A stretch of 64,000 nt of DNA, taken from positions 62,001 to 126,000 of the forward strand of contig JAIRWF010000010.1 in the NCBI GenBank assembly GCA_031253335.1, written 5' to 3'. The position numbers were made by a program, and so were the translations under genes. Numbering within the stretch: position 1 is the first letter of the stretch; each line of letters opens with the position of its first letter. Below the pieces are notes generated by a model, which did no database searches, was not told the DNA's origin, and saw nothing but the letters and a program-made list of their open reading frames with translations. This DNA is from Streptococcaceae bacterium. GTDB lineage: Bacteria; Bacillota; Bacilli; Lactobacillales; Streptococcaceae. Shown here in pieces: positions 25,554-45,766 of this stretch.

Positions 25554-26408
25554 ATGAAAAAGAAATTTCTCATAGCTCTTCTAGCGTTTACAGGGCTTGT
25601 GGCACTTACGGCCTGTGGCAACGGAAAGCAGCAAATCACAGCAGGTGGTTCAACCGCTCTGCAACCACTTGTAGAGCAGGCGTCGATTGACTACATGAAA
25701 CTTCATCCGTCTGAAATCATCATGGTGCAAGGCGGGGGATCTGGGGTTGGCCTTGCGCAAGTGGCTGCGGGGAGCTTCCAGATTGGAAATTCGGACATTT
25801 TCGCCGAAGAAAAACCAGGGATTGATGCAAGCAAGTTGATTGACAACAAAGTTGCGGTTGTTGGGATTGCACCGATTGTTAATAGTAAGCTAGGTCTGTC
25901 AAATTTGACACAGACGCAGCTGATTTCGATTTTCACAGGCAAAGTCACGAACTGGTCGCAAGTGGGCGGCCCCAACGAAGCAATCACCGTTATCGGACGT
26001 ACAGCAGGCTCTGGGACACGTGTCAATTTTGACAAATATGGCCTGAACGGATCGACCGAGCTCAATGGACCTACGCAAGACGCGAGCGGCTCCGTGGTGC
26101 AGCTCGTCAGCCAAACGCCAGGTGCTATCAGCTATGTTTCCTTTAGTTACAAGGATAAGCCAGGTGTCAAAGCGCTTGAGATTGACAATGTCGCGCCAAA
26201 TTATAAAAACGTCTCTGAAAACTACTGGAAAATCTGGGCTTACGAGCACATGTATCTCAATAAAGCCAAAGATAACACGACCGAACAAGATTTCATCAAT
26301 TTTATCAGTTCGGACAAAGCACATATTTTCGCAAAACTCGGCTATTTTAGCATCAATAATATGTACGTTGATCGCAACGCCCAAGGCAAAATCCGTCAAA
26401 TCAATTAA
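25554..26408 (+). CDS. pstS: Phosphate ABC transporter substrate-binding lipoprotein PstS (second paralog)
   Basis: Lipobox ALTACG; AGGSTALQPLVEQ; TVIGRTAGSGTRVNFD. Confidence 0.95.
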   Translation: MKKKFLIALLAFTGLVALTACGNGKQQITAGGSTALQPLVEQASIDYMKLHPSEIIMVQGGGSGVGLAQVAAGSFQIGNSDIFAEEKPGIDASKLIDNKVAVVGIAPIVNSKLGLSNLTQTQLISIFTGKVTNWSQVGGPNEAITVIGRTAGSGTRVNFDKYGLNGSTELNGPTQDASGSVVQLVSQTPGAISYVSFSYKDKPGVKALEIDNVAPNYKNVSENYWKIWAYEHMYLNKAKDNTTEQDFINFISSDKAHIFAKLGYFSINNMYVDRNAQGKIRQIN

Positions 26409-26500: not shown

Positions 26501-26813
26501 TCTGGCTTCGCCACAGCGCTTGCTTGACGCAACGCGTCAAGGTAGCAAATCAAGAAACGAAGTTTCCTCATTCGTCGCCGAATAAATGAACGCACAACTA
26601 GCGTTTTTGGGCGACACAAGCTTCACATGTTTCATCCGCTACCTCGACGCAGGCTGGGACTTGTTTCACAAGTCTTTATCTACCACCTTGGACGAGTCGT
26701 CCAAGCGAGCAAAAGCAAAACGGTTTTTAGACACGCCCTATTGTAGCAAAAAATCTGACTTTTGTCAGATTTATCTGGTGTATCCCGCAAACTTTGAGGG
26801 TGAGGTTGTAGGG

Positions 26814-32867: not shown

Positions 32868-33647
32868 TTAATTCCAGCCCATGGCCTTTTTAATCTGCGT
32901 GACCTGCAATGCTGCATAAGCTGTAGGGTCAGACTTTGCAAGTGCCTCCGCCTGCAAGGCAGCCTCAGGGTTGGCCGCCATTTCAGCTTTTTCAGCTGCC
33001 GCCATCTCAGGTGCCTTCTTTTGCAAAGCCGTCATCTGATCCTGCGTCAAGACAAGCCAGGTCGTCTTTGGCACTTCAGCTGTGAAGGTCTCCTTTTTCA
33101 GTTCGCCCCCTTCACCGCCAACACTGAACAACCACTGTGCAAAGCCATTACTCCACGCATAGCGCGACGTTTTCGTCACAATCTGCGCTGTGTTGCCATC
33201 AACCAACTTAATAGACGATGATTTCTTTGACGTCTCCACAACATGATTCTTCAAAATGTTTGAAATCCAAGACTTCATACTGGAAGATGCATTTTTATCG
33301 CTCGTATCAAGCTTTTTCAGATTTCCCAGGAAGTTCACGGTCACATCCTTATCGTTCGCGTCGGACTTATACATGAAAATATAATTTCCCGAGTCCGTCC
33401 CGAAAGGCTCCTTGAGCATCACCCCATAAGCCGCTTGAGTGCCTGCGATTGAGTATATCTGCTTGGTGGTCGTCGTTGTCTCCGTCTTCATCCCCCAGTG
33501 TGCCGTATCGTGGTAGATTAGCCCCACCATTGAAATCAGCAAGAGAATCGTCGTAAGGCCGCCTACAATATTGCCCGCAGCGCCCTTCATGTAGAAGAAA
33601 CCGACAATCGCAAGGGCTGCAAAAATGATAATGAGTAAGATAATCAT
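32868..33647 (-). CDS. DUF4811-like membrane protein next to MFS transporter
   Basis: Two N-terminal TM segments; overlaps the MFS gene; family name from context. Confidence 0.6.
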   Translation of the reverse strand: MIILLIIIFAALAIVGFFYMKGAAGNIVGGLTTILLLISMVGLIYHDTAHWGMKTETTTTTKQIYSIAGTQAAYGVMLKEPFGTDSGNYIFMYKSDANDKDVTVNFLGNLKKLDTSDKNASSSMKSWISNILKNHVVETSKKSSSIKLVDGNTAQIVTKTSRYAWSNGFAQWLFSVGGEGGELKKETFTAEVPKTTWLVLTQDQMTALQKKAPEMAAAEKAEMAANPEAALQAEALAKSDPTAYAALQVTQIKKAMGWN

Positions 33648-35212
33648 GCTGCGTCACCTCCTTGAGCTGCTTCTTGTTTGGCTTTCGCCTCATTTCTTTC
33701 ACGGACAGGCTGCGGACCAGCTTTCCCTTTGTGCAAGAAGAGTGCTACAAAAATCCCTAATACCGAGAAACCAAAGGCAATCCCAAAGGACACGTGGAAG
33801 CCATTCAGTGAAGCATTAATCATCTTCTCCGCATATTGCAGCGGATTCGTTGTCTGCAAATGCGACGCTGGTTTCGAGGCATTGATGACGTTGGTCGTCA
33901 CAGAAGCTAAGATTGCGACGACAACGGACGAGGCTATCATACGCGCTGTGTTGTTCGACGCAGAGCCCTGTGCGGCTTTGTCACGTGGCAACGCGTTCAT
34001 ACCAGAGGTGATGAGTGGCATCATGATGAGCCCAATCGCTACAAAACGCACCCAATAAGTAATCGTGATGAAGGCTTCTGGGGTATTTGCCGTGAGGAAC
34101 ATATAAGGCAGTGTCCCGATAGACAGGAGAATGAAGCCAATGAGTGTCAACTTGCGGGCGCCGAATTTATCATAGATTTGCCCTGCGATAGGCGACATAA
34201 GCGCCATCATAATCGACCCTGGTAAAAGTAAGAGCCCTGATTGCAAAGCGGTCAAACCATGGACATTTTGGATATAAGTTGGGAGCATCATCTCCACACC
34301 CATCATCGCCATCGTGTTAATCGCTGCAGCAATCGTTGCAACCGTAAATTGACGGACTTTGAAGACCGAGAGATCGAGGAAAGGATCTTTCAAATGGAGC
34401 TGGCGGAAGATAAAGAAGGCGATGATAATGAGTCCTACAATAATAGGCAAGATAACGTTCTTGAAGTCGCCCCAGCCGTCGTTTCCGACATTTGTAAAGC
34501 CAAAGAGGAAGAGGCCAAAGCCTGCGAGAGATTCTAAGAGCGAGAGAATATCGAGCTTCATATCGCGGTTCGGTAGGACGTCCGCCATGAGAATCGGCGT
34601 GAGGATGGTCACTATCACAAGGATGACAAAGGGAACAGTGAACATCGTGCGCCAGTCGCCAAGCTGTAAAATCCCTAAAAATTTCGAGTGACCTGAGAGA
34701 ATGGCACCCCCGTAGGTAGGCCCGATGGCTGGTGCCAAGCCAATGACGAGACCACCCATTCCCATTGGCACCCCGATTTTATCAGGTGGGAAGATGTTCG
34801 TGATGACGGTCATCATGAGGGGCAATGAAATCCCTGCGCCCATCGCCATGACGACACGTCCTAAAAGGAAGATGTTGTAGTTTGATGTGGGAGCACTCAT
34901 TGCAATTCCTGTCCCAATCGCCGTGAAGCCGTAGGCAATCATAAAGAGCCAACGGGTCGGGATTTTCGTCGTCAAATAGGCGGAGACAGGCACCATGATG
35001 CCGTTTGCCAAGAGGTACCAAGTTGTGGCCCCTTGCGCCGTGGATAGGCTGATATTGAACTTATCCATGAGGGTCGGATAGGCTGTCGAGAGGAAGGTCT
35101 GTCCGAGCATCCCTGCGAAAGTCCCGATGAGGATCATCACAAACATGATGCCACGATGGAAGTGCTTTCCATGCGCATCAAGGGAATAATCTTTTTTGTC
35201 TAATTCTGGCAT
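33644..35212 (-). CDS. DHA2 family multidrug MFS transporter (EmrB/LmrB-like)
   Basis: 14-TM-type protein; LLGRVVMAMGAGISLPLMMTVI; GLVIGLAPAIGPTYGGAIL. Confidence 0.93.
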   Translation of the reverse strand: MPELDKKDYSLDAHGKHFHRGIMFVMILIGTFAGMLGQTFLSTAYPTLMDKFNISLSTAQGATTWYLLANGIMVPVSAYLTTKIPTRWLFMIAYGFTAIGTGIAMSAPTSNYNIFLLGRVVMAMGAGISLPLMMTVITNIFPPDKIGVPMGMGGLVIGLAPAIGPTYGGAILSGHSKFLGILQLGDWRTMFTVPFVILVIVTILTPILMADVLPNRDMKLDILSLLESLAGFGLFLFGFTNVGNDGWGDFKNVILPIIVGLIIIAFFIFRQLHLKDPFLDLSVFKVRQFTVATIAAAINTMAMMGVEMMLPTYIQNVHGLTALQSGLLLLPGSIMMALMSPIAGQIYDKFGARKLTLIGFILLSIGTLPYMFLTANTPEAFITITYWVRFVAIGLIMMPLITSGMNALPRDKAAQGSASNNTARMIASSVVVAILASVTTNVINASKPASHLQTTNPLQYAEKMINASLNGFHVSFGIAFGFSVLGIFVALFLHKGKAGPQPVRERNEAKAKQEAAQGGDAA

Positions 35213-35640
35213 TCATTTACCTCTTTCAATGTATCTAAAAATTTTTGGAAGGTTCTAAGGAAATCCTGCGTGTCACGTTCGCCCATTGCTTCAAGCGTTT
35301 TTTGGACACGCCCTTCCATGATCTCACGCTGCTGATTGAGCTTTGTGCGACCTTTACCTGTGAGTTTCACAATGATTTTTCGTCGATCGTGTTTGTCAAT
35401 CTCACGTTTCACAAGGCCGTGATCTTCAAGTCCCGCAAGGAGTGTCGCCACACGTGCTGAAGAAATCTGGCCGTCTTCAGCGAGGTCGCTTGGCGTCACA
35501 TCATCAGTCTCGTGATGTTTGAGATAGACAAGTATCGGAATCTCGCCGCGCCCCACTTTGTTTAAGTGCTGTACTTCTTCTGACTTGGTGGCTTGCTTTA
35601 CGATTTGCATCAAGTCAGAGGCAGCTTTTGAAAAGTCCAT
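35200..35640 (-). CDS. MarR family transcriptional regulator
   Basis: winged helix: SDLAEDGQISSARVATLLAGLEDHGLVKREIDKHDRRKIIVKLTGKG. Confidence 0.93.
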   Translation of the reverse strand: MDFSKAASDLMQIVKQATKSEEVQHLNKVGRGEIPILVYLKHHETDDVTPSDLAEDGQISSARVATLLAGLEDHGLVKREIDKHDRRKIIVKLTGKGRTKLNQQREIMEGRVQKTLEAMGERDTQDFLRTFQKFLDTLKEVNECQN

Positions 35641-35673: not shown

Positions 35674-35707
35674 ATCTAACAACATTAAGTATTTTACATC
35701 GTTAGAT
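35674..35707. promoter_or_regulatory. Candidate operator upstream of the marR gene
   Basis: ATCTAAC N20 GTTAGAT inverted repeat. Confidence 0.4.
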
Positions 35708-35716
35708 TTTAATTGT

Positions 35717-36135
35717 CAAGAAAAAAGACTTGAAAAACTGAAAATAGATTTTCAGAAATTTTCAAAAGTGCTTTCATGAGGCGGGACAGCTCCACGACTA
35801 CGCGAAGTCTTTTTCTCTTATCTCTTTACCTGAATGCTCCCAGGGTCGCATCCAGCAAGAAAAAAGACTTGAAAAACTGAAAATAGATTTTCAGAAATTT
35901 TCAAAAGTGCTTTCATGAGGCGGGACAGATCCACGACAACGCGAAGTCTTTTTTCTCTTATCTCTTTACCTGAATGCTCTCAGGGTCGCATCCAGCAAGA
36001 AAAAGACTTGAAAAACTGAAAATAGATTTTCAGAAATTTTCAAAAGTGCTTTCATGAGGCGGGACAGCTCCACGACTACGCGAAGTCTTTTTCTCTTATT
36101 CTTTTGCCTGAGTGTCCTCACAGCGTACAGTAGCA
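35717..36135. repeat. Three tandem ~140-bp structured repeats
   Basis: CAAGAAAAAAGACTTGAAAAACTGAAAATAGATTTTCAG... begins at about 35717, 35856 and 35996; few differences between copies. Confidence 0.9.
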
Positions 36136-36137
36136 AT

Positions 36138-36166
36138 AAAAAAACTGCCAACTGGCAGCTTCAATA
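36138..36166 (-). terminator. Terminator of hpf
   Basis: AAAAAAACTGCCAACTGGCAGCTTC; minus-strand hairpin plus T run. Confidence 0.75.
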
Positions 36167-36173
36167 GCTTGTC

Positions 36174-36719
36174 TTATTTTGTTTCCAAAATCCCGACTTG
36201 GCCGTCTTCGCGTTTATAGACAACACTTGGCGTGTTCGTATCGCCATCTGTAAAGAGGAAGAAATCGTGCCCCGACATTTCCATCTGCAGGACTGCCTCT
36301 TCAACGTGCATCGGCTTCAAATCTACGTGCTTTGTACGCACGACTTTGGTCTCCGCATAAGCAGCCTGGATTTCTTCTTGCAAATCTGCAAATTCTTCGA
36401 TTTCAGGGAGATTTCCATTGCCCTTTGCGTTAATCCGCGTTTTGTACTTACGAATTTGGCGAGCAAGCTTTTCTTGAACAGCATCTATCGAGCCGTAGAG
36501 ATCACGCGATTTGTCCTCTGCACGTAAAGTCAGGCGCTTTGCAGGAATGGTCACCTCAATCTTTGCCGATCCGTCTTTATAAGTCTTCAGCGAGACGTGG
36601 GCCGTCATCTCGTGCCCGTCGTTAAAGTATTTTTCGAGGTTGCTGATACGTTCCTCGACGTAGTCACGCAGGGCGTCTGTGACTTCAATGTTTTCGCCAC
36701 GAATGTTAAATTTAATCAT
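36174..36719 (-). CDS. hpf: Ribosome hibernation promoting factor (long form)
   Basis: MIKFNIRGENIEVTDALRDYVEERISNLEKYF; HDFFLFTDGDTNTPSVVYKREDGQVGILE. Confidence 0.95.
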   Translation of the reverse strand: MIKFNIRGENIEVTDALRDYVEERISNLEKYFNDGHEMTAHVSLKTYKDGSAKIEVTIPAKRLTLRAEDKSRDLYGSIDAVQEKLARQIRKYKTRINAKGNGNLPEIEEFADLQEEIQAAYAETKVVRTKHVDLKPMHVEEAVLQMEMSGHDFFLFTDGDTNTPSVVYKREDGQVGILETK

Positions 36720-39814: not shown

Positions 39815-42800
39815 TTAAGCGCCACGTTTTTTACGGCGGCGGAATGCAGCCATAGCCACAGCACCTGCAAGAGCTGCTTCGCCTGCTGCCATCATGATTT
39901 CAGCACTTGTGCTATCACCAGTTGATGGCAATGAACGCTGTTGTTGGGCAGAAGACGTTGAAGGCAAGCTGCCTGCTACTGCATAGCCAGCTGGCTCGTA
40001 GACAATGGTCGTGGTACCGTTCGTACCATTGGTTCCATTTGTACCGTTGGTTCCGTTTGTACCATTCGTACCGTTAGTGCCATTCGTGCCGTTAGTACCA
40101 TTTGTACCATCTTTACCGTCAGCACCTGGAGCACCTGGAGCACCTGGGGCACCTGGGGCACCTGGAGCACCTGGGGCACCTGGTTCGCCTGGAGCAGCGG
40201 AACTTGAGTCACTCGAGCTACTTGAAGAGCTACTTGAGTCACTTGAGCTACTTGAAGAACTGCTTGAGTCACTTGAGCTACTTGTGCTACTATCTTGAGG
40301 TGGGAAGAGCCAGTTAATGATGCCATTTGCAATGTCGTTAATCCATGTGCAAATGTCGCTGATGCAGTGATTTACCCAGTAAATCGCATCACTGATTGAA
40401 GCCTGAACATCCCCAAAGATTGTCTGTAAGTCGCTACCAATCGTGCCAAGTGCACCGCCAAGACCAGCAACTGCATCACCAATCCAGCTCCACACATCAG
40501 AGATAGCACCTTGAAGGTCGCCACCGATTGTACTTAAGATATTTCCAAGACCACTCCAAACATCGGACAACGCACCTTGAAGGTCTCCTTCGATTGTACC
40601 AACTACTGTCTCAATGTTCTTCCAAACATCAGAGATAGCGCCGTCAATCGCGTCATCAATCTCATCAATCTCGCCGCCAACCCAGCTAATCGCTGCTTGG
40701 AGGTCACTACCGATGGTTGTCGCAATCGTCTCAAGGCCCTTCCAAACATCAGAGATAGCGCCGTCAATCGCGTCATCAATCTCATCAATCTCGCCGCCAA
40801 TCCAGTTGACTGCGTCGCTAATCCAAGTCCCAATCGTTGATGCAATATCGCCAAGACCATTCCAAATACCGCTAAGCGCACCTTGAATATCTGCACCAAT
40901 CGTTGAGAGAATACTACCAAGACCATTCCAAATATCTGAAATACCAGAATAGATACCGCTAACTGCTTCACTAATCCAGTCGCAGATGTCGCTAATGCAG
41001 TGGTCAACCCACTTCGCAATACCGTCAAAGACAGATTGCAAGTCAGCGCCAATCGTTGAAAGAAGACTTCCAAGACCATTCACTGCATCTTGAATCCATG
41101 TCCAAACTTGATTAGCAACTGTCGAAATCGCACTACCGATTGCATTGACAATATCTGTCAACCAAACAGAGAGTTGATGTAAGCCATCCTCAATACCTGT
41201 AATCGCAGCACTGATAACACTAGAGATTCCATTCCAAAGCTCTGAGAGTGCATTTTCAATTGGATCAACAATATTTTTCATAATCCAATTCCATGCATCA
41301 GACAGAGCGCCAGTGATACCGTTCCAGAGGTCTGAAAGACCCGTCTCAATAGCGCTAACCAAGCTGCCAAGTTCATCCCATACCCATGTCAAGGCGTTCT
41401 TGATATCTGTTGCAAGGTCACCAAGTTGAGTGGTAATCCAATTCCATGCGTCTGAGAGACCTGTCTCAATATCCGACACAAGGTTACCAAGCTGATCCCA
41501 TACCCATGTCAAGGCATTCTTGATATCTGTTGCAAGGTCACCAAGTTGAGTGGTAATCCAGTTCCATGCGTCTGACAAAGCACCTGTGATACCATTCCAG
41601 AGGTCTGAAAGACCAGTCTCAATATCACTAACCAAACTTCCAAGTTGATCCCAAACCCATGTCAAAGCATTCTTAATATCAGTTGCAAGGTCGCCAAGCT
41701 GTGTGGTAATCCAGTTCCAGGCACCACTAAGTGCACCCGTAATACCGTTCCATAGGTTTGAAAGGCCAGTTTCGATATCCCCTACGATGCTACCAAGCCA
41801 GCTCCATACGTCTGACAAAGCGCCTGTGATACCATTCCAAAGATTTGAAAGACCAGTCTCGATATCGCCAATCAAGCTACTCAAGCCGCTGGTAATCCAG
41901 TTCCAGACACCGGAGAGGGCACCCGTAATACCGTTCCAAAGGTTTGAAAGGCCAGTTTCGATATCCCCTGCAATGCTTCCAAGCCAGCTCCATACGTCTG
42001 ACAAAGCGCCTGTAATACCATTCCAGAGATTCGAGAGTCCAGTTTCGATATCGCCAATCAAGCTACTCAAGCCGCTGGTAATCCAGTTCCAGACATCGGA
42101 GAGGGCACCCGTAATACCGTTCCAGAGGTTTGAAAGACCTGTTTCGATATCACCAATCAAGCCGCTCAAACCGCTGGTAATCCAGTTCCAAGCACCAGAG
42201 AGGGCACCCGTAATACCGTTCCAAAGATTTGAAAGAACAGTCTCGATATCGCCAATCAAGCCGCTCAAGCCGCTGGTAATCCAGTTCCAGGCACCGGATA
42301 GGGCTCCCGTAATACCGTTCCAGAGATTTGAAAGACCTGTTTCGATATCACCAATCAAGCCGCTCAAACCGCTGGTAATCCAGTTCCAAGCACCACTAAG
42401 TGCACCCGTAATACCGTTCCAAAGATTTGAAAGACCAGTCTCGATATCGCCAATCAAGCCGCTCAAACCGCTTGTAATCCAGTTCCAGGCACCACTAAGT
42501 GCACCCGTAATACCGTTCCAGAGGTTTGAAAGACCCGTTTCGATGTCTCCAACGAGGCTACCAAGGAAGCTACCCGCATCAGACAAAGCACCTGTGATGC
42601 CATTCCAGAGGTCAGAAAGGCCTGTTTCAATATCACTCACTAACCCACTGATAGCATTCTCAATAGGATCAATGATGTTTGACTGAATCCAGTTCCAAAT
42701 ATCGGAAAGACCATTTGCAATATCGCTAGGAAGTGAGGTAATTGCGTTCCAAGCACCGCTAAGCGCACCGGTAATCCCGTTCCAGAGGTTTGAAAGACCT

Positions 42801-45766
42801 GTTTCAATATCGCCAGCAAGGCTGCCTAGGAAGCTACCTGCATCAGACAATGCACCCGTAATTCCATTCCAAAGATTGGAGAGACCGTTCTCAACGTCTC
42901 CAACAAGACTACCAAGGAAGCTGCCTGCATCAGACAATGCACCTGTAATCCCATTCCATAGATTTGAAAGGCCATTTTCAACATCACCAACCAAGCTACT
43001 AAGGAAACTGCCTGCATCAGATAACGCTGTTGTTGCGTCATTAATTAAGTTACTAACTGCATTTTCGATGGGATCAACAACATTCGACTGAATCCAGTCC
43101 CAAATGTTAGAAAGTCCGTTTCCAATCTCGCTAGGAAGTGACGTAATAGCATTCCAAGCGTTTGAGAGAGCACCAGTTACATCTCCAACGAGGCTACCAA
43201 GGAAGCTACCTGCATCAGACAGAGCACCAGTAATTCCATTCCAGATGTTTGAAACTGCATTTGCGACGTCTGATGCCACGCTGCTCAAGAAGCTTGTTGC
43301 ATCGCCAATCGCGTTTGCAATATCTGATGGGATGCTTTCAACCGCACTGATGGCGTCGCTAATAATTGGCGTCACCGCATTACTGATTGCGTCATAAACA
43401 CTGCCTAAAGCATTTTCAACACCAGAAACGACGTTAGAAACTGCATTTGCGACGTCTGATGCCACGCTACTCAAGAAGCTTGTCGCATCGCCAATCGCGT
43501 TTGCAATATCTGATGGGATGCTTTCAACCGCACTGATGGCGTCGCTAATAATTGGCGTCACCGCATTACTTATATTTGAGACGATGTTAGAAACTGTGTT
43601 TGCCACATCACTTGCAACACTACTCAAGAAGCTTGTCGCATCGCCAATCGCATTTGCAATATCTGATGGAATGCTTTCAACCGCCGAAATCGCATCGCTA
43701 ATAATTGGCGTCACCGCATTACTGATAGTAGAAACAACATCACTTACAGCGTTTTGTACACCTGCAACGGCGTTCGATACAGCAGCAACTGCATTTGAAA
43801 CTGCGTTTGACGCTGCGTCATAAATGCCGCTCGCCACGTTGGAGACAGCGGCGATTGCATTTGATACAGCGTTCGATGCAGCGTCATAAATACCGTTTGC
43901 AACATTTGAAACGGCAGCAACTGCATTTGAAACTGCGTTTGACGCTGCGTCATAAATGCCGCTCGCCACGTTGGAGACAGCAGCGATTGCATTTGATACA
44001 GCGCTCGATGCGGCATCATAGATGCCATTTGCGACATTTGAAACGGCAGCAACAGCATTTGAAACTGCGTTTGACGCTGCGTCATAAATGCCGCTAGCCA
44101 CGTTGGAGACAGCAGCAACTGCATTCGAGACAGCATCTGAAGCTGCGTCATAAATACCACTCGCAACATTTGAAACGGCAGTGACTGCATTACTTACTGC
44201 TGTAGAAGCAGCATTATAAGCATCGCTAGCTAAGTTCTCTGCGCCACTAACGACGTTTGATACTGCAGTTGATGCTGTATTATAAACGTCGCTCGCCACA
44301 TTTGAAATGGCAGTGGTTGCGTTTGAAATAGCATTGGAAGCTGCAGTGACAGCATCTGAGACAGCGTTTGACGCTGCGTCATAGATACCAGTCGCAACAT
44401 TCGAAGCAGCGTTGACAACGTCAGAGACAGCAGTTGACGCTGCATCATAGGCTTGGCTCACAACATTTGTGACAGCTGTAACCGCATTACTCACAGCAGT
44501 TGATGCTGCGTCATATGCATCCCCAGCCAAGCTAGTCGCAGTCGTTACAGCATTACTCACTGCGTCGTAAGCTTGACTCGCGACATTAGAGACAGTTGTT
44601 ACAGCATCATTCACTGCGGTTGAAGCCGCATCATAGACTTGACTTGCAACGGTTGAGGCTGTTGTGATGGCATCACTGACAGCAGTTGAGGCTGCCGCAT
44701 AAGCCTGACTTGCGACACTTGATACTGCCGTTACAGCGCCGCTTACTGCATTAGTGGCTGCATCAACGACTTGACCCGCAACACTCGTTGCAGCTGACAC
44801 TGCCTGACTTGCTGCGTCATAGGCCTGACCAGCGACACTTGTGGCAGCCGACACGACATTGCTTACAGCATTAGACGCTGCGTCATAAACCTGACCAGCG
44901 ACACTACCCGCAGCAGATACTGCACCGCTCACTGCGTCATAAGCTTGAGAAGCCACGGCAGTGGCAGCTGAAATTGCCCCACTCACAGCATTAGAGGCAA
45001 GGGTATATACCGAGTTAAGTGCATCTTCAATAGTACTTAAAACATCCGTTGATCCAGAAGTCGTTGCCGCTGTACCATCGGTAGTATCAGCCAATGTCTT
45101 TGTCACTGGTGCTTCCAGTGTCATTGTGGCAGCAGCTTCACGGACTACGCCGTTGGTTGTTTGGCTGTCATTTGGATCAGCGACAACGGTCCCTGCGACG
45201 GTATTATTCGTCGCATTGGCCATACTACTATAGACACTATAAACCAGCGTCGTCAAGAATGGGTTTGACCCATAAGTGCTCGTCAAAGAAGCAATCACCG
45301 AGTCTAAGGCGCTGCTTGCGACGATATCTTGATTAGTAGCTGCATTCGATGGAGAGGTTATTGCGTTACTAGATGGCGCAGTAGATGTCGCTGTTGCATT
45401 ATTGGAAGATGCAACGGTACTTGAGACATTTGCTGCCAGCTTCGCCATCGTGTTGCCTGCAGACTGTGTGGTTGCACCAGAACTTGTTCCACTCAATGTG
45501 GCAGTCGATGATGCATCTGAAACGCTGCTCGTTGTGTCCGCAGAAGCTGATGTTGCGGTCGCCGATGCTGCATCGCTCGTACTGCTTTGTACAGCGGCAC
45601 TTGTGACCTGTGAAGCATCAACTGGTGTTGTTTCCGCCTGGGCTGTAGCTCCGCCTCCTACGAGAGCTACTGTCGCGGCAGCAGCAAAGAGCCAAGTCTT
45701 ACCCGACTTCCAAGTCCGGTAATCCTTGACTTCTTTGTTAAATTTACGCGTGTTAGCTAGTTTCAT
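39815..45766 (-). CDS. Giant LPxTG surface protein (1983 aa) with KxYKxGKxW signal, hendecad repeats and collagen-like stalk
   Basis: KEVKDYRTWKSGKTWLFAAAATVALVGG; Ala/Val/Ser and LWNGITGALS repeats; GAPGAPGAPG...GTNGTNG; LPSTGDS-TM-RRRKKRGA. Confidence 0.93.
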   Translation of the reverse strand: MKLANTRKFNKEVKDYRTWKSGKTWLFAAAATVALVGGGATAQAETTPVDASQVTSAAVQSSTSDAASATATSASADTTSSVSDASSTATLSGTSSGATTQSAGNTMAKLAANVSSTVASSNNATATSTAPSSNAITSPSNAATNQDIVASSALDSVIASLTSTYGSNPFLTTLVYSVYSSMANATNNTVAGTVVADPNDSQTTNGVVREAAATMTLEAPVTKTLADTTDGTAATTSGSTDVLSTIEDALNSVYTLASNAVSGAISAATAVASQAYDAVSGAVSAAGSVAGQVYDAASNAVSNVVSAATSVAGQAYDAASQAVSAATSVAGQVVDAATNAVSGAVTAVSSVASQAYAAASTAVSDAITTASTVASQVYDAASTAVNDAVTTVSNVASQAYDAVSNAVTTATSLAGDAYDAASTAVSNAVTAVTNVVSQAYDAASTAVSDVVNAASNVATGIYDAASNAVSDAVTAASNAISNATTAISNVASDVYNTASTAVSNVVSGAENLASDAYNAASTAVSNAVTAVSNVASGIYDAASDAVSNAVAAVSNVASGIYDAASNAVSNAVAAVSNVANGIYDAASSAVSNAIAAVSNVASGIYDAASNAVSNAVAAVSNVANGIYDAASNAVSNAIAAVSNVASGIYDAASNAVSNAVAAVSNAVAGVQNAVSDVVSTISNAVTPIISDAISAVESIPSDIANAIGDATSFLSSVASDVANTVSNIVSNISNAVTPIISDAISAVESIPSDIANAIGDATSFLSSVASDVANAVSNVVSGVENALGSVYDAISNAVTPIISDAISAVESIPSDIANAIGDATSFLSSVASDVANAVSNIWNGITGALSDAGSFLGSLVGDVTGALSNAWNAITSLPSEIGNGLSNIWDWIQSNVVDPIENAVSNLINDATTALSDAGSFLSSLVGDVENGLSNLWNGITGALSDAGSFLGSLVGDVENGLSNLWNGITGALSDAGSFLGSLAGDIETGLSNLWNGITGALSGAWNAITSLPSDIANGLSDIWNWIQSNIIDPIENAISGLVSDIETGLSDLWNGITGALSDAGSFLGSLVGDIETGLSNLWNGITGALSGAWNWITSGLSGLIGDIETGLSNLWNGITGALSGAWNWITSGLSGLIGDIETGLSNLWNGITGALSGAWNWITSGLSGLIGDIETVLSNLWNGITGALSGAWNWITSGLSGLIGDIETGLSNLWNGITGALSDVWNWITSGLSSLIGDIETGLSNLWNGITGALSDVWSWLGSIAGDIETGLSNLWNGITGALSGVWNWITSGLSSLIGDIETGLSNLWNGITGALSDVWSWLGSIVGDIETGLSNLWNGITGALSGAWNWITTQLGDLATDIKNALTWVWDQLGSLVSDIETGLSDLWNGITGALSDAWNWITTQLGDLATDIKNALTWVWDQLGNLVSDIETGLSDAWNWITTQLGDLATDIKNALTWVWDELGSLVSAIETGLSDLWNGITGALSDAWNWIMKNIVDPIENALSELWNGISSVISAAITGIEDGLHQLSVWLTDIVNAIGSAISTVANQVWTWIQDAVNGLGSLLSTIGADLQSVFDGIAKWVDHCISDICDWISEAVSGIYSGISDIWNGLGSILSTIGADIQGALSGIWNGLGDIASTIGTWISDAVNWIGGEIDEIDDAIDGAISDVWKGLETIATTIGSDLQAAISWVGGEIDEIDDAIDGAISDVWKNIETVVGTIEGDLQGALSDVWSGLGNILSTIGGDLQGAISDVWSWIGDAVAGLGGALGTIGSDLQTIFGDVQASISDAIYWVNHCISDICTWINDIANGIINWLFPPQDSSTSSSSDSSSSSSSSSDSSSSSSSSSDSSSAAPGEPGAPGAPGAPGAPGAPGAPGADGKDGTNGTNGTNGTNGTNGTNGTNGTNGTNGTNGTTTIVYEPAGYAVAGSLPSTSSAQQQRSLPSTGDSTSAEIMMAAGEAALAGAVAMAAFRRRKKRGA

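Follow-up and report, generated by a model that had tools for sequence, protein, structure and literature searches.

A 64,000-nucleotide stretch of a Streptococcaceae bacterium (contig JAIRWF010000010.1, positions 62,001–126,000; hereafter the window) contains an array of three direct repeats on its minus strand, between hpf, the gene for a ribosome hibernation factor, and a marR-efflux operon. With a probability of about 70%, this array is a tandem-amplified insertion of a small, structured mobile module that belongs to a Streptococcaceae-wide family, the best-known relative of which is the boxB repeat of the pneumococcus. The data establish a module that is shared and covaries and, at well-preserved loci, an exact junction, a duplicated target and complementarity that spans the junction. 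The original prediction, made from the sequence of the window, had described three tandem repeats of ~140 bp at this place, and these are indeed present with a 139-bp period. It missed that the recurring element is the linker rather than the 140-bp unit.

The three copies occupy 35717–36134, with start-to-start distances of 139 and 139, and Tandem Repeats Finder (TRF) reports a period of 139, 2.8 copies and a match of 96%. The units are near-identical to each other (92–97% by BLAST), and a BLAST search found the whole 139-bp unit nowhere else in its own genome. The first two linkers carry CTGAATGC...GCATCCAG, as predicted, and a weak search first revealed this linker at other loci of the same genome. 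One copy lies upstream of a gene for a HAD hydrolase, in an array within which two contigs both end, and another lies upstream of msrB (gene names outside the window, except those tested with Pfam, were read by eye from the translated sequence). A module of ~20 codons is in frame in trpG (L049, 1435–2088), its arms changed in sequence but still complementary; the empty TrpG protein of a congener reads AQYVGALTEVKVLRND and lacks the insertion. Looser copies are found in a gene identified by eye as mutS (L159, 719–774), apparently in frame, and in a tRNA-Thr(CGT) gene (L183, 734–887), with a junction-spanning complement of 7 nt.

In relatives, a pattern search found the linker in Lactococcus cremoris between hisZ and hisG, in a Lactococcus gene for an ABC permease, and in three copies at 61-bp spacing before a polysaccharide deacetylase gene of a congener. 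Array periods are 139–142 bp in this genome and 60–61 bp or 140–157 bp in most of the other arrays examined. Pattern scans of viral and genome contigs recovered only L. cremoris (L056), the remaining genome matches being single, scattered among unrelated taxa and apparently due to chance, and plasmid and phage collections gave no match or chance-level matches only. There were no Rfam matches in the window at the gathering score, and the related loci had only chance-level matches at E up to 10.

Read in the direction of the downstream gene, the module consists of a first hairpin (loop GACCAAGNGGGA in this subgroup), the linker GGTTGCGGATAA and a second hairpin. Its reverse complement, hairpin-TATCYRCAACC-hairpin, matches pneumococcal boxB in layout. 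A covariance model, R1, was built from nine modules with boxB left out; it nevertheless recovers pneumococcal boxB at the positions found by BLAST, at 24–26 bits. R1 has matches in 33 of 60 Streptococcaceae genomes and in none of the 40 genomes that represent other families of the order. In an alignment of 98 modules, 94.6% of the cells of the two helices are paired, and there are 400 double changes against 139 in shuffles. This alignment was fitted to the structure, which leans the pairing counts towards it; even so, the double changes are far above those of every control in which the partner was slid, and pairing in those controls falls to 27–51%.

Wobble pairs are found mostly on the strand that runs in the same direction as the downstream gene (22 vs 5 loci, p = 0.0015), and it is therefore probably the RNA or single-stranded DNA of that strand that is the form under selection. 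The idea of a structured, RNA-like unit in the original prediction is supported to this extent, by the covariation and the wobble bias of the module.

The same bias would fit a different explanation, in which the modules are leaders that act in cis as regulatory RNAs, the guide-like segment switching between the upstream fragment and the intact gene downstream as its pairing partner and so tuning expression. All of the tRNA-associated modules are co-directional with the gene and upstream of it, as such a role would have them, single units of the window exceed shuffles in folding more clearly on the minus strand (z −2.2 to −3.8) than on the plus strand (z −1.7 to −2.9), and some linkers can pair with the tail, though linker-tail pairing is only modestly above chance (permutation, 11/2000). 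Against this, there are insertions within coding sequence and tRNA genes, the targets are many and unrelated, orthologous sites are empty, and in tRNAs pairing of this kind would disturb the precursor on its D-arm/anticodon-arm side. Regulation in cis is a rather improbable account of the family.

The evidence for insertion is clearest at tRNA genes. Many modules lie inside these genes, right after the D-arm or within its loop. The module is preceded by a 5' fragment of the target that reaches exactly to hairpin 1; downstream come a tail of ~23–84 nt and then the complete target. By best local alignments, the upstream repeat stops exactly at hairpin 1 in ~20 modules; random pairs of upstream and downstream flanks attain the anchored score of 16 in only 4 of 396 cases. 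Beginning 6–8 nt past hairpin 2, the tail has a segment of 6–12 nt that can pair with the rebuilt target on both sides of the insertion point. This was found at 23 of 24 loci tested, where junctions and intact copies were assigned by hand on the basis of the repeat analysis.

The 23 loci with both a duplication and a junction-spanning complement fall into eight target classes. Six are tRNA isotypes (tRNA-Pro, Thr, Arg, Lys, Asn and Val), and the other two are the HAD gene and hisG. The complement covers, for example, AGAG|TACTTG in tRNA-Pro, GAG|CAAC or GAG|CAGC in tRNA-Thr, CAGCTGG|ATAG in tRNA-Arg, TTGG|TAG in tRNA-Lys, GAG|CGTC in tRNA-Val, CCAAAGG|GCG in hisG and GG|CACG in the HAD gene. 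When targets were permuted among nine class representatives, the observed sum was never equalled (0/5000). Insertion is further supported by an empty site – in seven other Lactococcus genomes nothing separates hisZ from hisG, which overlap or adjoin, whereas three modules and a 26-nt duplication starting at the hisG ATG are present at this junction in L. cremoris.

These loci also bear on another explanation of the array, a plain local tandem duplication in which a 140-bp intergenic segment was copied by slippage, its linker being an older dispersed palindrome and guided insertion playing no part. Recent unequal recombination would account for the near-identity of the units in the window, where the guide is also out of register (see below). 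However, the geometry of 5' fragment, hairpin 1 and rebuilt target recurs at many independent loci that differ in local sequence, and hisG holds an inserted element with a flanking duplication where the orthologous site is empty. Local duplication alone is given little credence, at odds of roughly one in eight or worse.

The combination of an exact end at hairpin 1, a variable tail, a duplication of variable length and a matching segment leads us to infer insertion directed by base pairing. In the proposed mechanism, the complementary tail segment, as RNA or single-stranded DNA, would act as a guide that directs insertion. The module would enter right after the 5' fragment of the target, and a duplicate of that fragment, perhaps produced by staggered nicking or repair, would rebuild an intact target downstream. 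Since the target is rebuilt it would be open to repeated insertion, and re-insertion or unequal recombination could then produce arrays with a ~140-bp period.

More broadly, boxB-like modules could be the visible part of a system of nucleic-acid-guided insertion in Streptococcaceae. Such a system would use a non-coding RNA or single-stranded DNA of up to ~120 nt and a junction guide of 6–12 nt, insert exactly at the point the guide matches, and keep tRNA genes and operons intact by duplicating the 5' part of the target. This extension is put forward tentatively, at a little under even odds.

Two variants were set aside. That the ~110-bp units are local promoter DNA was rejected at tRNA-Pro, where the upstream neighbour is a tRNA-Arg gene and the tail is unlike it. 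The wobble bias, being to the other strand, speaks against a simple model in which an RNA in the BOX orientation primes on the displaced strand.

Several observations weigh against guided insertion of a mobile module, in the window or in general. The copies in the window match R1 weakly (20.7 and 16.2 bits; E 0.018 and 0.19). No junction-spanning guide is found there, the complement across the junction being 3 nt only, and the self-complement of 12–13 nt that does exist precedes hairpin 2 and reaches positions −15 to −3 only, out of the guide register. Among the tRNA loci, several may be orthologous, in which case the independent events are fewer than the loci, and D-arm targets are related, with cross-class runs of 6 or more in 12 of 420 comparisons. 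Many modules have neither a long duplication nor a guide, including those in frame in trpG and mutS, those at ribosome-binding sites and those in arrays flanked by CTGTCAG; such modules may be decayed, truncated or of another class. No mobilising enzyme turned up, though no enzyme search was made.

Within the window, all features of the array are on the minus strand. Unit A, proximal to hpf (35996–36134), has a degenerate module at its start; unit B (35856–35995) is in the middle; and unit C, proximal to marR (35717–35855), consists of the module and a tail or local part, ending ...CTTG at the −35 box of the marR promoter. The geometry of target fragment and rebuilt target is found here as well – ...CTTG directly precedes units B and C and also closes the last unit, inside the intact −35 box of marR – with the length of the original duplication ambiguous in the T-rich sequence.

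Hairpin 1, CTGGATGC-GACCCTGGGA-GCATTCAG, is at 35830–35855 (within the 20.7-bit R1 match, 35806–35855) and again at 35970–35995 (within the 16.2-bit match, 35945–35995), and is almost identical to that of other modules. A degenerate hairpin 1 (GCTACTGTACGCTGTGAGGACACTCAGG) is at 36107–36134, the third linker of the array being a degenerate copy with 65% identity over 55 nt. The linker and hairpin 2 have drifted. The linker reads GGTAAAGAGATAAGAG at 35815–35830 and has a second copy at 35955–35970 (compare GGTAACGGATAAAG at msrB); it has a 2-nt deletion, without which it reads CCTGAATGCTCCCACTTGGTCGCATCCAGC. By folding, hairpin 2 is probably CTTCGCG-TAGT-CGTGGAG (35791–35807, 35930–35946 and 36069–36085), with an alternative hairpin TCGTGGAGC-TGTCCC-GCCTCATGA (35774–35797, 35913–35936 and 36052–36075). 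The array is a divergent member of the family.

The predicted inner AT-rich hairpin CTGAAAATCTATTTTCAG (35738–35755, 35877–35894 and 36016–36033) and GC-richer segment were both recovered, as was the closing stem AGAAAAA(A)GACTT / AAGTCTTTTT(T)CT. The 5' arm of this stem, AGAAAAAGACTT (35805–35816, 35944–35956 and 36083–36094), is the 12–13 nt segment noted above, antisense to the end of its own unit, AAGTCTTTTTTCT. Because the arms are equal in length within units A and B, the closing stem as originally drawn is weakly favoured.

The array is bordered upstream by the intrinsic terminator of hpf (36141–36162) and downstream by the marR promoter, TTGACA-17-TAAAAT (35691–35719), and stops within the −35 box, which begins at 35719 (TTG|ACA). 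The neighbouring genes are hpf (36174–36719; Pfam Ribosomal_S30AE) on one side and, on the other, those for a MarR-family regulator (35200–35640; Pfam MarR_2 and MarR), an MFS transporter (33644–35212; Pfam MFS_1) and a DUF4811 protein (32868–33647), all on the minus strand.

The original prediction had raised the possibility of tandem small RNAs, stacked attenuators or a repeat-type regulator, here for the marR-efflux operon, and the stable hairpins, the T-runs and the location upstream of marR would suit such elements. On the other hand, Rfam has no match, and the terminator-like unit ends that had been proposed were not confirmed – no recognisable intrinsic terminator lies within the units, the sole one found being that of hpf (36162–36141, minus strand). 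The marR promoter is intact and downstream of all the units, the module also occurs at unrelated genes, and the orthologous marR operons of four congeners keep the promoter and have no repeat at all, which argues that the array is not a dedicated efflux regulator. Small RNAs or attenuators for this operon are highly improbable, and from the sequence comparisons any dedicated role in efflux control is unlikely. The effect of the array on marR is probably small or incidental, amounting at most to insulation from hpf read-through.

Other modules and repeats differ from those described above. A second, weak module may be present in the window at 26658–26704 on the plus strand (R1, 18.2 bits). It consists of TTGGACGACTCGTCCAA, GGTGGTAGATAAA and GACTTGTGAAACAAGTC, adjoins another degenerate-looking copy within 26600–26710, and sits in a palindrome-rich stretch downstream of a gene at 25554–26408 that by eye resembles one for a phosphate-binding protein. 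Some Lactococcus module arrays (L169–L174, L176, L179 and L181) have CTGTCAG flanks and TTACTGAC inverted repeats, are often at gene ends, and form a separate class with no guide or long duplication. In genomes of genus g3 (L123, L152 and L197–L201), many modules lie within a larger common repeat containing GATCGTTAACAGGTTCTA. Modules at ribosome-binding sites (L133, L153 and L154) have a repeat of only 4–6 nt (AAGG/GAGG) and almost no tail, and are possibly truncated insertions. Apart from the modules, the window encodes a very large, repetitive LPXTG-like surface protein of 1983 aa (39815–45766), with a KxYKxGKxW-type signal and a collagen-like GAPGAP tail.

BOX elements have been described as parasitic repeats of the form boxA-boxBn-boxC that hardly occur except in pneumococcus, S. 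mitis and S. suis (Croucher et al. 2011, PMC3049150). Like the module, boxB has two hairpins joined by (C/T)TATCYRCAACC, occurs in tandem copies and is found in dispersed intergenic repeats. Hairpin, linker and hairpin are all recovered at the level of the family, the copies in the window being weaker and their linker diverged. While boxB is described as lying between boxA and boxC, the modules described here stand alone; no boxA or boxC flanks were seen, in that module flanks are locus-specific and BLAST with boxB repeats fails in this genome, though no explicit search for boxA or boxC was made. The period of boxB is 45 bp in the sequences compared, whereas the arrays here have ~140 bp and include target sequence. 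Further differences from boxB are a hairpin 1 that often has a 12-nt loop and the target complement after hairpin 2.

Target-primed retroelements of the non-LTR/SINE type are also short, structured and non-coding, with one exact and one variable end and target duplications of variable length (~22–47 nt at the modules); the module differs in its size of ~70–120 bp, its guide-like segment, its prokaryotic host and the lack of a linked reverse transcriptase (again with no enzyme search made). Mobile group II introns (EBS-IBS pairing) and IS110 bridge RNAs likewise carry a short segment that can pair with the target on both sides of the insertion point, but the module has no intron ribozyme or recombinase, and its target duplication rebuilds the gene. 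IS200/IS605 elements share a hairpin beside the insertion point and a guide that pairs with the flank. Their guides are ~4 nt and they are not known to make a target duplication, in contrast to pairing of 6–12 nt and a long duplication here. REP/RAYT, MITEs and Rickettsia palindromic elements are similarly small, palindromic, non-coding and sometimes in frame in genes, as in trpG and mutS, but the modules at tRNA loci lack terminal inverted repeats of the whole element and a fixed-length duplication. The literature searched, with incomplete coverage that leaves novelty unproven, contained no account of boxB-like modules that stand alone, of tRNA genes as their targets or of a complementary guide.

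BOX repeats have served as typing markers for decades, and to our knowledge the spread and multiplication of boxB are unexplained. Modules like boxB can now be placed in several genera, their structure kept by compensatory change. Many of them are linked to a precise point of insertion, a guide-like segment that matches it and a target that has been rebuilt. How small bacterial repeats move thereby becomes a question open to testing, and the modules could represent another class of guided insertion, alongside group II introns, bridge RNAs and CRISPR-linked transposons.
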